A DNA stretch of 64,000 nt from Bacteroidia bacterium (GTDB taxonomy: Bacteria > Bacteroidota > Bacteroidia > Bacteroidales > GWA2-32-17), in assembly GCA_016218155.1 (NCBI GenBank), contig JACREQ010000076.1:1-64000 (forward strand), written 5' to 3'. Shown one piece after another: positions 56,532-60,369 of the stretch. Each line of letters begins with the position of its first letter. Within the stretch, counting starts at the first letter, position 1. Below the pieces are notes generated by a model. The model worked only from the letters and a program-made list of their open reading frames with translations. It was not told the origin of the DNA and searched no databases. The translations under genes were made by a program, and so were the position numbers.

Positions 56532-57293
56532 TTACAACAGTTCAACCACAACGGGGCAATGATCTGAATGAAAAACTTGTTGTAAAATTTCTGCCGATTT
56601 TAATTTCGACTTAAGCTTTTCACTTACAAAGTTATAATCAATTCTCCAGCCCAAATTTTTCATTCTTGAATTTTGCCTGTAACTCCACCAGCTATATTGA
56701 TTCCCTTCAGAATTAAACTCTCTGAATGAGTCAATTAAACCCAATTCTAAAAAAGAGGTCAGCCATTCACGTTCTTCTGGCAAAAAACCTGACATATCAT
56801 TATGTTTTTCGGGATGATTAATATCTATAGGTTTATGGCAAATATTAAAATCGCCGGAAATAATTAAAGACGGTCTTATTTTTAAAAGTTCCTTTATATA
56901 ATTATAAAATGCATCCAAAAAATCCATTTTAAAAGCCTGACGAATATCCCCCATCGACCCGGAAGGAACATAAACAGAAATTTGAGTTACATCTCCAAAA
57001 TCTGCACGAATTACTCTTCCCTCATCATCATATAACGAATTACCAATCCCAATAATAACATTATCAGGTTTTTGTTTAGATAAAAGCCCAACACCACTAT
57101 ATCCCTTTTTCTGAGCACTATTCCAAATAGGATTATAACCCATTTCTATAAATTTATTTACATCAAACTGATCTGATGTAGCTTTTAATTCCTGAAAACA
57201 AATGATATCACATCCAGACTCAGAAATCCAATCAGTTAAACCTTTTGACATGGCAGCTCTGATACCATTAACATTGTATGAAAATACCTTCAT
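56532..57293 (-). CDS. xth: Exodeoxyribonuclease III (AP endonuclease)
   Basis: 253 residues of the exonuclease-endonuclease-phosphatase fold. Motifs: NVNGIRAA, CFQELKA (metal-binding Glu), GYSGVGLLSK, YVPSG, SGDFNICH, WSYR..N..GWRIDY and a final SDHCPV with the catalytic Asp-His. It cuts DNA at abasic sites and removes 3' blocks. It is divergent from the MinD-ferredoxin operon, with only 60 bases between the two starts. Confidence 0.95.
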   Translation of the reverse strand: MKVFSYNVNGIRAAMSKGLTDWISESGCDIICFQELKATSDQFDVNKFIEMGYNPIWNSAQKKGYSGVGLLSKQKPDNVIIGIGNSLYDDEGRVIRADFGDVTQISVYVPSGSMGDIRQAFKMDFLDAFYNYIKELLKIRPSLIISGDFNICHKPIDINHPEKHNDMSGFLPEEREWLTSFLELGLIDSFREFNSEGNQYSWWSYRQNSRMKNLGWRIDYNFVSEKLKSKLKSAEILQQVFHSDHCPVVVELL

Positions 57294-57353: not shown

Positions 57354-58178
57354 ATGATTGTTTCAATAATTGGTACAAGAGGCGGAATTGGTTCAACTAC
57401 TTTGTTGTCTAATTTATTTGTACAAGTTAAAAATGCAGAAACAACACATGGCTGGCTTTCACTCACAAGTCCTTTTCCACCTTTATTTGCAGAAGATTCA
57501 ACAAAATGGGAAAAAGTATTTTCATTTAAGCGAAAAATTCCTGAGTGGATAAGCGAAAAATGTACTAAATGTAATGAATGTGTTAATTTGTGCGCTAATG
57601 ACGCTATTTCTCCTATTGCAAATGAATACATTATTAGTAGCGAATTATGTAATTCTTGTAAAACTTGCATTAGTGCATGTAAAAGCAAAGCACTTGAATT
57701 TAAATTAGATGAAGTTGGAGTTATTGAAAAATCTGATAATATTAAATTTAATTTACACCAAATAAGTTTAAATGAAAAAGAAATTATTTCGACCTGGCAT
57801 TTAAAGGAAATTTTTAGTTTTTTAAAAGGTTATAAAGAAAAAAACTCCATTTTCTTTATTGATATTCCATCTGGTTTACACGAATATTGGGAAGAAGTGC
57901 TAAAACTTTCAAGTTCGGTTATTTTATATTCAGATGACACATTTATTACTGATTTAATTTACAAATCTCACTCACCACGACAGGCGAAATTATTACTTGC
58001 AGTTACAGAAAAGTCATTTAGTGAATTTGAAAAAGCCGGGTATTCATTTGCAATATCAATACCCAACAATAAAGAAATTGCATTTGATTCAATACAAGGA
58101 AAGATTGTTTTAGATTCAGCTTTTAATAGTTCAATTAAAGAACTAAAAAATCAAATACTTGAAAAAGTTCCATCATGA
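57354..58178 (+). CDS. MinD-like P-loop protein with 2[4Fe-4S] ferredoxin insert, degenerate P-loop
   Basis: 274 residues. The fold follows MinD/Mrp ATPases with a ferredoxin domain inserted at about 65-115: C70-x2-C73-x2-C76-x3-C80 and C99-x2-C102-x2-C105-x3-C109, which can hold two [4Fe-4S] clusters. The deviant Walker A should be KGGxGK(T/S). Here it is RGGIGST (9-15): the signature lysine is Arg and the P-loop lysine is Ser. Nucleotide hydrolysis is therefore doubtful. FIDIPSGL resembles the switch II segment. It overlaps the next gene by 4 bases (ATGA), so the pair is coupled and probably forms a heterodimer. Confidence 0.85.
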   Translation: MIVSIIGTRGGIGSTTLLSNLFVQVKNAETTHGWLSLTSPFPPLFAEDSTKWEKVFSFKRKIPEWISEKCTKCNECVNLCANDAISPIANEYIISSELCNSCKTCISACKSKALEFKLDEVGVIEKSDNIKFNLHQISLNEKEIISTWHLKEIFSFLKGYKEKNSIFFIDIPSGLHEYWEEVLKLSSSVILYSDDTFITDLIYKSHSPRQAKLLLAVTEKSFSEFEKAGYSFAISIPNNKEIAFDSIQGKIVLDSAFNSSIKELKNQILEKVPS

Positions 58179-58960
58179 AAGAAATTTTACTAATATCTGA
58201 CAAAGGTGGAACCGGAAAATCATCGGTACTAAGTTCATTAAAAACACTTTATAATGAAGCTGCTGTATTTGCAGATTGCTCTTTTACTTCTACTTATAAC
58301 AATTTACAAATAACAAGTGAAGAAATATTTAATTCAAGATATATAAGTACAGTAAAAAACAATATTTGTCTTTTTTGTGGAGATTGCGATGGAATTTGTG
58401 AATTTGGTGCACTTGAATTTAATACCGAAGAAATTAAGCTTGACCGTCATAAATGCACCGGTTGCGGACATTGCGTTTACATTTGCCCGGCAGGTGCAAT
58501 TGAATTAAAAAAAATACATTCTGGAAAAATAATTATTTCTGAAGAACATAAAAGTATTTTTATTTATGGTTTACTTCAGCATTTTCAGCAGGACGGAACC
58601 AGACCCATGTACATTGTTAGGAACAAAGCGTTTGAAATAGCCACTGAAAAAAAAAGAAAATTTCTTATAATAGAATCTGCTCCCGGATGGGATCGGCTTA
58701 CACGTTCACTTGTACATTATGCAAATATTTTAGTACCAGTAATTGAACCTCATGCATTAGTTTTTGATTTTCTTGAGAAAATTAAAAATTATTCAAATCA
58801 AAACGGCACTGAAATAAAATTGATAATTACAAAATCTGATGCAAATCCTCATATCTCAAATAAAATAATGAAGGAATATAATGACTGGGAAATCATTTGC
58901 ATACCATGGAATAATTGTGCAGATCAAGAAACAAATAATAAATTTGTCAACTTTTTATAA
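58175..58960 (+). CDS. MinD-like ATPase with 2[4Fe-4S] ferredoxin insert, intact P-loop
   Basis: 261 residues. The Walker A motif is intact: K10-GGTG-K15-SS in LLISDKGGTGKSS. The ferredoxin insert has C65, C68, C71, C75 and C94, C97, C100, C104, the last followed by Pro as in classical ferredoxins. The Walker B/switch area reads LIIESAPGWDRL. MinD-like ferredoxin ATPases carry or transfer electrons, or iron-sulfur/metal cofactors, in an ATP-dependent way; their targets are mostly unknown. It follows the degenerate partner by a 4-base overlap and precedes the unknown gene by 2 bases. Confidence 0.88.
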   Translation: MKEILLISDKGGTGKSSVLSSLKTLYNEAAVFADCSFTSTYNNLQITSEEIFNSRYISTVKNNICLFCGDCDGICEFGALEFNTEEIKLDRHKCTGCGHCVYICPAGAIELKKIHSGKIIISEEHKSIFIYGLLQHFQQDGTRPMYIVRNKAFEIATEKKRKFLIIESAPGWDRLTRSLVHYANILVPVIEPHALVFDFLEKIKNYSNQNGTEIKLIITKSDANPHISNKIMKEYNDWEIICIPWNNCADQETNNKFVNFL

Positions 58961-58962
58961 AT

Positions 58963-60369
58963 ATGGAACACGAAATACTTTCATCGGGAAACAAAGCTTT
59001 AAAAATAAATTTAAATCCTGAAATTTTTGGCTCTATTGCTGAGATTGGTGGTGGACAAGAAGTAGCAAGAGAATTTTTCAGAGCCGGAGGTGCTTCAAAA
59101 ACAATTGCTAAATCTATTTCAGCATACGATAAAAATTTTAGCGATGCATTGTATAAGTCGAAATCTGGAAGATATGTGTCTGAAGCCCGACTTAGAAAAA
59201 TGCTTGATACCGAATATGCAGAAATAACCAAAATATTAACGAAAACAAGAGGATCGCATTCTACCTTTTTTGCTTTTGCAAATACAGTTGAAACTATAAA
59301 TTACAGAAAAGACAATCAGGGACACGGTTGGCTAGGTATAAGATTCCAAACCAGTCCAATGTCAGAACCAAATGATGTAATTTTGCATACAATTCTGCAT
59401 GAGAATGATACTATCTTACAACAAAGTACATTAAGCACATTAGGTATAAATCTAATTTATGCCTGTTTCTATTTAAATAATGATATTGATGCATTTATTA
59501 TTTCTCTGTTAGACAATTTATCCAGTGACAGACTTGAAATTAATATGGTAAGCATTTCAGGTCCAAATTTTGAACATTGTGATAACAGACTGCTAAGTGT
59601 AAAACTGGTTAAACATGGTTTAACTTCGGTTAGTATTTTTGACAGATATGGAAAAGTACAGCAACCCGGCGACATGCTTTATAATAAAGATGTAATGGTG
59701 CTAAGAGGAAGTTTCAGACCAGTTACCTATATTGAGCTTGATATGCTTAAATCGGGTTATGCATTATTTAAGAACGAAGTTAATTACTCACCAGAAACAA
59801 GTGTTGTTCTTTGTGAAATGACTTTAAATAATCTACTTGAAGAAGGTGAATTTCATGAAAAAGATTTTTTAGACAGAGTTGACCTTCTAAATGGTATGGG
59901 ACAAAATGTTATGATTTCAAACTACAGAGAATTTTACAGACTCTCTGCATATTTTTCACAATTTAACATTGTTCAGTTAAGACTGATAATGGGTGCAGAT
60001 ACTCTTAAAAAAGTAATTGATGAAAAATATTACAATCACTTAAAAGGTGGAATTCTGGAGGCATTTGGCAGACTATTTGGGAAGCATGTAAAATTGTACA
60101 TTTATCCATTTAAAGATAAAATTGAAAAGCCCTTTTTAAACTCAAAGAACATAGAAGTAAGTTCGCATATAAAGCCTTTATTTAATTACCTCATTTATAA
60201 TGAAAAAATATTAGATATAACAACTAGCAATAAAAACAAAATTTATATCTCAAACAGAAAAGTTAGTGATATGATTAAACAAGGAAAGAAGGGATGGGAA
60301 GAAAGTGTCCCAAATTATATAAGCGAAAATATTATTAAGAAAGGCTTATTTGAGTATAAAAATAAATAA
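58963..60369 (+). CDS. Conserved protein of unknown function in the MinD-ferredoxin operon
   Basis: 468 residues, no signal peptide and no membrane segment, so cytoplasmic. The N-terminal segment INLNPEIFGSIAEIGGGQEV, the AKSISAYD motif, GHGWLGIRFQ and GGILEAFGRLFGK belong to a family I recall as widely conserved and often mislabelled TonB-dependent receptor or NMN adenylyltransferase; neither label is supported by the sequence. I see no P-loop and no cysteine cluster. It starts 2 bases after the intact MinD-ferredoxin gene, so it is the third member of the operon and a candidate target of the ATPase pair. Confidence 0.8.
   Translation: MEHEILSSGNKALKINLNPEIFGSIAEIGGGQEVAREFFRAGGASKTIAKSISAYDKNFSDALYKSKSGRYVSEARLRKMLDTEYAEITKILTKTRGSHSTFFAFANTVETINYRKDNQGHGWLGIRFQTSPMSEPNDVILHTILHENDTILQQSTLSTLGINLIYACFYLNNDIDAFIISLLDNLSSDRLEINMVSISGPNFEHCDNRLLSVKLVKHGLTSVSIFDRYGKVQQPGDMLYNKDVMVLRGSFRPVTYIELDMLKSGYALFKNEVNYSPETSVVLCEMTLNNLLEEGEFHEKDFLDRVDLLNGMGQNVMISNYREFYRLSAYFSQFNIVQLRLIMGADTLKKVIDEKYYNHLKGGILEAFGRLFGKHVKLYIYPFKDKIEKPFLNSKNIEVSSHIKPLFNYLIYNEKILDITTSNKNKIYISNRKVSDMIKQGKKGWEESVPNYISENIIKKGLFEYKNK

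Follow-up and report, generated by a model that had tools for sequence, protein, structure and literature searches.

The subject of this analysis is a string of three genes on the forward strand of a 64,000-nucleotide stretch of DNA from a Bacteroidia bacterium (contig JACREQ010000076.1), referred to here as the window. The first two genes encode a pair of related iron-sulfur proteins, P1 and P2, and the third encodes a larger protein, P3.

57354..58178, + strand: P1, 274 amino acids; first member of the pair, of MinD type judging by its relatives, with an inserted 2[4Fe-4S] ferredoxin and a degenerate P-loop
58175..58960, + strand: P2, 261 amino acids; second subunit of the pair, with an inserted 2[4Fe-4S] ferredoxin and an intact P-loop
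58963..60369, + strand: P3, 468 amino acids; predicted CinA-C/PncC-like and NadD/NMNAT-like folds with altered catalytic motifs

In the open reading frames (ORFs) of the window P1 and P2 overlap by 4 bases and a gap of 2 bases separates P2 from P3. The three genes form an apparent operon and are probably co-transcribed. A first-pass annotation of this DNA had described the three genes, both junctions and the cysteine sets of the pair, and all of these were confirmed on the ORFs; the tight gene string is also present in a related genus. The tandem architecture of the pair is already known from ORP-type loci. What is new here is that the pair is one-sided and that a fold can be predicted for P3. 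Gene order, motifs and phylogeny were computed, as were the predicted folds of P3 and its absences from genomes.

Both proteins of the pair have two CxxCxxCxxxC sets of ferredoxin cysteines, C70/73/76/80 and C99/102/105/109 in P1 and C65/68/71/75 and C94/97/100/104 in P2, and both match Pfam Fer4. A CbiA/ParA-type Pfam match was found for neither P1 nor P2 themselves. Since their own Pfam matches are Fer4 only, membership in the P-loop family is shown via relatives. Almost the whole of P2 can be aligned with the ferredoxin ATPases of the order (best match outside the window's family 31% identity, expectation value (E) 3.5e-32), and one representative comparison pair, at locus L124, matches CbiA and ParA above the cut-off together with Fer4. 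The cysteine sets, the Fer4 matches and the relatives of P2 bear out the earlier description of a coupled MinD-type ferredoxin pair. A defence system was considered and rejected; the sole PADLOC match is of the ferredoxin stretch of P2 to BrxP (E 9.4e-7).

Related pairs are common in the order. A survey of 149 genomes, in which a pair was counted when the best P2 match reached E 1.3e-17 or better, found such a match in 55. Twenty pair regions were compared, one from the window's family and 19 from elsewhere in the order. A PF02579-type gene (dinitrogenase-cofactor type, cluster C1 of these regions) lies beside the pair in all 19 non-family loci, and DUF134-type and DUF5320-type clusters are present in 12 and 11 of the 20 loci, respectively; the family names of these clusters were checked on one locus, L124. 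In carrying these genes the comparison loci resemble the ORP complex. Excerpts of PMC6345978 describe Orp3 (DVU2103) and Orp4 (DVU2104) of Desulfovibrio vulgaris as resembling one another, with two [4Fe-4S] motifs apiece. They also report that Orp3 co-purified with Orp4 and Orp8, that Orp8 is homologous to Mo-Cu sulfide cluster proteins, and that MrpORP, which is of the Mrp/NBP35 kind and bears a dinitrogenase-cofactor domain, could transfer clusters to these proteins in vitro. An excerpt of PMC4672049 likens ORP proteins to Mrp/ParA/MinD P-loop ATPases. P1 and P2, like Orp3 and Orp4 as these excerpts present them, are related subunits encoded side by side, and both carry two [4Fe-4S] ferredoxin motifs. 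The first-pass annotation knew of no described system with this make-up, but by architecture and usual neighbours the pair matches Orp3/Orp4 of the ORP complex as far as the excerpts go. A literature search returned no paper combining 'MinD superfamily' and 'ferredoxin domain'.

The pair of the window's family differs from Orp3/Orp4 in its locus as well as in its motifs. Ten genomes of the family were searched and eight of them have the pair. None of the eight has a PF02579 gene at the locus, where P3 lies downstream in five. The whole genome of the window has no PF02579 match, and four of the eight pair-bearing genomes have none genome-wide.

The motifs of the family's pair have changed on one side. 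The P-loop region of P1 reads GTRGGIGSTT, in which the signature lysine is replaced by R9 and the P-loop lysine by S14, whereas the P-loop of P2, SDKGGTGKSS, is intact with K10 and K15. Read by eye across the eight pair-bearing family genomes, the P-loop lysine of P1 is gone in all eight, with Ser, Val or Ile in its place. The signature lysine is Arg in four, Asn in three and Lys in one, and so absent from seven of eight. The loss of the two lysines leaves P1 outside the deviant Walker A pattern of MinD/ParA proteins (KGGxGK[TS]). In P2 all eight have KGGTGK, with T or S as the next residue. The deviant P-loop, GKGGTGK, is also intact in all 38 proteins of the 19 comparison pairs, a feature that they and P2 share with Mrp/NBP35 and MinD/ParA proteins. 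The window's pair differs from those proteins in the ferredoxin insert and in the missing P-loop lysine of P1. The first-pass annotation spoke of two ATPases, which is too strong given the missing P-loop lysine of P1.

A second change affects both subunits. The cysteine after Walker B is present in all 38 comparison proteins but is missing, by eye, from both P1 and P2 in 8/8 family genomes; this lost cysteine may be comparable to Cys132 of NifH. The ferredoxin cysteines are retained in the family, although the P1 of one genome (G150) has an altered first cysteine spacing. Ratios of nonsynonymous to synonymous substitution rates (dN/dS) for P1 and P2 were 0.05-0.38 in ten comparisons (five genome pairs each), rough values in that several dS exceed 1. 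P1 and P2 therefore seem to be kept by selection, and decay of the pair into pseudogenes was rejected. An anaerobe-type Fe-S ATPase pair that is now one-sided, and apart from its usual metal-cofactor partners, is a natural experiment on the role of each half.

In the phylogeny of the pair the family's P2 proteins lie inside the second-subunit clade (support 100/100) and adjoin the P2 of G065 (88/87), with a stem of 2.73 changes per column. The family's P1 proteins form one separate clade with a stem of 5.58. Descent from the ORP-type locus pair of the order is found for P2 and is less sure for P1, whose stem is long. Judged from its sequences, the window's pair is a fast-diverged form of the known tandem pair.

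We favour, with a probability of roughly 60%, the explanation that a derived, asymmetric Orp3/Orp4-type pair acts as a single-site heterodimer and that P3 has a function of its own. In the sandwich dimers of MinD-type proteins each nucleotide site requires the P-loop of one subunit. Since that of P1 is degenerate, no competent site is expected beyond the one of P2. The heterodimer of P1 and P2 would contain four [4Fe-4S] clusters and a single working nucleotide site, in P2. Binding and hydrolysis of ATP at P2 would change the shape of the dimer and so gate the transfer of low-potential electrons or, less likely, of a cluster. The electron acceptor would be a partner encoded outside the locus. 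The job of the pair has probably changed, because PF02579-type genes are not in the locus and the Walker B cysteine is gone.

The same losses bear on another suggestion, namely that the pair does not gate electrons but carries or chaperones iron-sulfur or mixed-metal clusters, a role put forward for other Mrp/NBP35 proteins. This is possible but rather unlikely. The comparison pair does match CbiA and NUBPL/ParA-type ATPase models, and metal clusters figure in the ORP context in the excerpts of PMC6345978. However, the Walker B cysteine that all comparison proteins keep is absent from both subunits throughout the family, and the PF02579 gene is absent from every family locus, being elsewhere in the genome or not found at all. 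These losses would have removed the likeliest cluster-handling parts, and the classical ferredoxin cysteines stay.

P3 was described in the first-pass annotation as a member of a widespread family with no assigned role. The P3 of the window has no match in Pfam or NCBIfam even at E 1 and none in PADLOC, chance-level matches only to PHROGs and PDB sequences (one PDB chain), and no match in plasmids. That part of the description stands, but the predicted fold is recognisable as PncC-like plus NadD-like. An AlphaFold model built from 56 sequences has a mean predicted local distance difference test score (pLDDT) of 88.5 and a predicted template modelling score of 0.87. In this model residues ~4-176 have the fold of the CinA C-terminal domain (6l19_A, Z 16.6, root-mean-square deviation 2.7, 153 residues), and residues ~240-466 have the nucleotidyltransferase fold of NadD/NMNAT (2h29_A, Z 15.8, 175 residues; 1nup_A, Z 15.7, 199 residues). 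Profile comparison with hhalign matched the NadD of family genomes to the whole of P3 (probability 84, P 7.6e-6) and to its C-terminal half (probability 90.5, P 1.4e-6). Neither the N-terminal half against NadD nor the C-terminal half against CinA gave a comparable match. TIGR01527 was weakly matched by 16 of the 56 aligned P3 members (best E 4.5e-4), and the P3 of the window is not among them. The likeness of the C-terminal half to NadD and other NMN adenylyltransferases (NMN, nicotinamide mononucleotide) is thus one of predicted fold, profile match and weak TIGR01527 matches in relatives; the likeness of the N-terminal half to CinA rests on the predicted fold, there being no profile support. 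P3 also differs from CinA in that the CinA-like part is fused to a NadD-like domain and not to COG1058, and a literature search returned no paper on a NadD-CinA fusion. A phylum survey found P3 in 73 of 395 Bacteroidota genomes, and the predicted fold gives this family its first testable function.

The catalytic motifs of both parent families are altered in P3. The NadD motif GSFNPxHxGH reads RGSFRPVTxxx, with T255 in 54/56 and Asn258 in 48/56 aligned sequences, so that residues of a T-x-V-N type replace HxGH. The SSSFIR motif is altered as well, and P3 has neither GxFxPxHxGH nor SSxxIR as used to define NadD. An excerpt of PMC4246079 deals with Tyr-296 and the catalytic Lys-301 and Thr-340 of Thermus CinA. 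By eye, Y55, S60 and A106 stand at these places in P3, and all three are invariant (56/56). On this by-eye equivalence the general-base lysine of PncC (YSNxxK) and its Thr/Ser partner are missing. P3 thus shares a predicted fold with the NMN deamidases of the CinA-C/PncC type but lacks both a significant sequence match to them and equivalents of Lys-301 and Thr-340. A new set of residues is invariant in all 56 sequences, among them E27, Q32, E33, Y55, K57, S60, D61, H121, R248, G249, R252, P253, Y379 and Y381.

The genome of the window also encodes an ordinary NadD and an ordinary CinA. That P3 is itself an ordinary NadD or CinA was rejected, given the altered motifs and the presence of the ordinary copies. 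It might still be an active bifunctional enzyme that converts NMN to nicotinic acid adenine dinucleotide, as deamidase and adenylyltransferase, by means of the altered residues. The match of both predicted folds at Z ~16 and the conservation of the new residue set agree with such activity, but the loss of GSFNPxHxGH, SSSFIR and the Lys-301/Thr-340 equivalents and the presence of the ordinary enzymes make it doubtful. The predicted structure is that of a pyridine-nucleotide enzyme and the motifs have changed, which suggests another chemistry or a binding role. In the explanation that we favour, P3 would be a vertically inherited PncC-like/NadD-like protein with its own function, its probable ligand being a pyridine nucleotide or a related compound.

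The first-pass annotation placed P3 at the receiving end of an ATP-gated delivery device. P3 lies directly behind P2 in five of the ten family genomes (G000, G155, G153, G151 and G063), that is, in five of the eight with the pair and in two genera; G155 was taken to be locus L002 and G152 to be L008, and each was counted once. Three further genomes have the pair and no P3 match anywhere (G156, G149 and G150; 100, 99 and 96% complete). In G152 only P3 was found, and in G154, which is 74% complete, neither P3 nor the pair. Assembly does not account for the missing P3 of G156, where the contig continues past P2 and, 127 bases on, reaches the start of a gene resembling the one downstream of P3 in the window. 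As the G156 pair is nested between the pairs of P3-bearing genomes, P3 was lost at least there. Since the genomes without P3 have the pair in the same altered form, P3 is not needed to keep it so. Behind the pair of G149, in the place of P3, the segment L176:7775-8525 has short repeated-looking ORFs and no P3, and looks like degraded or repeat DNA.

The linked P3 proteins form one clade (98/89) with a short stem (0.12) compared with the very long stems of the pair. The P3 of G065 (90/85) and that of L008 (100/97) branch just outside them. In the same tree the P3 of G024, another genome of the order, is almost identical to the one at L003 (branch lengths 0.0035 and 0.0054). Since P3 follows the species and the linked proteins are one clade, the linkage probably arose once. 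Vertical descent predicts that the P3 of G065 adjoins those of the family, and this is what is observed, parallel to P2. The joining of P3 to the pair would have been a single event in a common ancestor of the two genera, followed by loss of P3 in some.

Outside the family the two are apart. P3 matches are present in 35 of the 149 genomes of the order (in G042 by fragments only), and 21 of these also have a pair match at threshold. In 19/19 such genomes outside the family, all drafts, P3 and the pair are on different contigs. A wider scan of the collection used patterns taken from the query itself, and the best 80 of 129 relatives were kept. The pair was found only at L002 and not at the other 79 of these 80 loci, within flanks of at most 10 kb, some of them short. 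It was found near 0 of 50 further loci, thirty of which have only ~1.5 kb of flank. P3 occurs in genomes without the pair and so presumably works on its own.

Among the loci of P3 relatives some neighbours recur, all named from sequence. In one part of the order, at L003-L007, L148-L150 and L152, a P3 relative adjoins genes like the E1 and E2 components of 2-oxoglutarate dehydrogenase, and the corresponding clusters C26 and C25 are present in 9 and 10 of 101 loci. In Flavobacteriia (L012-L081) the relative is often divergent from a metallo-beta-lactamase-fold-like gene, with no pair; that cluster (C1 of the P3 loci) is present in 66/101 loci in a stable gene order. In G338:C13 and G521:C9 the P3 match is in two pieces, perhaps frameshifts or broken genes.

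Could the three proteins be one machine, in which the pair delivers electrons or a cluster to P3 by means of ATP, or P3 acts as a gate on the pair in response to NAD-type ligands? The genomes without P3 would then be a branch in which it was lost or replaced. The tight spacing, the single clade of linked P3 proteins and the dN/dS of P3 (0.04 and 0.12 in the two computable comparisons) are in its favour. The same altered pair in three near-complete genomes without P3, the loci of P3 relatives without the pair, and the short P3 stem beside the very long stems of the pair are not, and no invariant or nearly invariant column of P3 holds a cysteine. We consider such a machine unlikely. In its obligate form it was rejected, as G156, G149 and G150 have the pair without P3, and the device of the first-pass annotation is not supported. 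Co-occurrence across genomes, which that annotation proposed as a check against the genes being unlinked in nearly all of them, fails in its strong form, with linkage in one family only. The partnership between P3 and the pair is real but local and optional. A further reading would have a redox-driven device that couples the asymmetric heterodimer to a pyridine-nucleotide-binding P3 as a losable add-on, with the ATP-driven transfer of electrons gated by the status of NAD precursors or by redox state, or the other way round. This we hold to be improbable.

Several points weigh against a single-site Orp3/Orp4-type heterodimer beside an independent P3. The spacing of P2 and P3 is tight in 5/5 linked genomes (from a 4-base overlap to a 5-base gap), so a true P2/P3 partnership is possible, and the single clade of linked P3 proteins could likewise mean a working partnership. 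The pair is equated with Orp3/Orp4 on the strength of its architecture and gene neighbours, the Desulfovibrio sequences being outside the alignment. PF02579 is found on other contigs in four of the eight pair-bearing genomes. Placements in the tree of the pair are unsure, with very long stems, two long G150 rows and sequences of odd letter make-up including G000_1. The CinA kinship of P3 is not significant by profile comparison, either for the whole protein or for its N-terminal half. We infer the heterodimer and its redox role, and a structure model of P2 (pLDDT 62, from an alignment of 4) was of too low quality for use.

One neighbouring gene lies upstream of the string.

56532..57293, - strand: exodeoxyribonuclease III-like gene, divergent from P1 with 60 bases between

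This gene, which we presume from its sequence to be exodeoxyribonuclease III-like, has relatives divergent from P1 (L116 and L172-L177), the arrangement being found in all eight pair-bearing family genomes. It is a steadier companion of the P1-P2 pair than P3.

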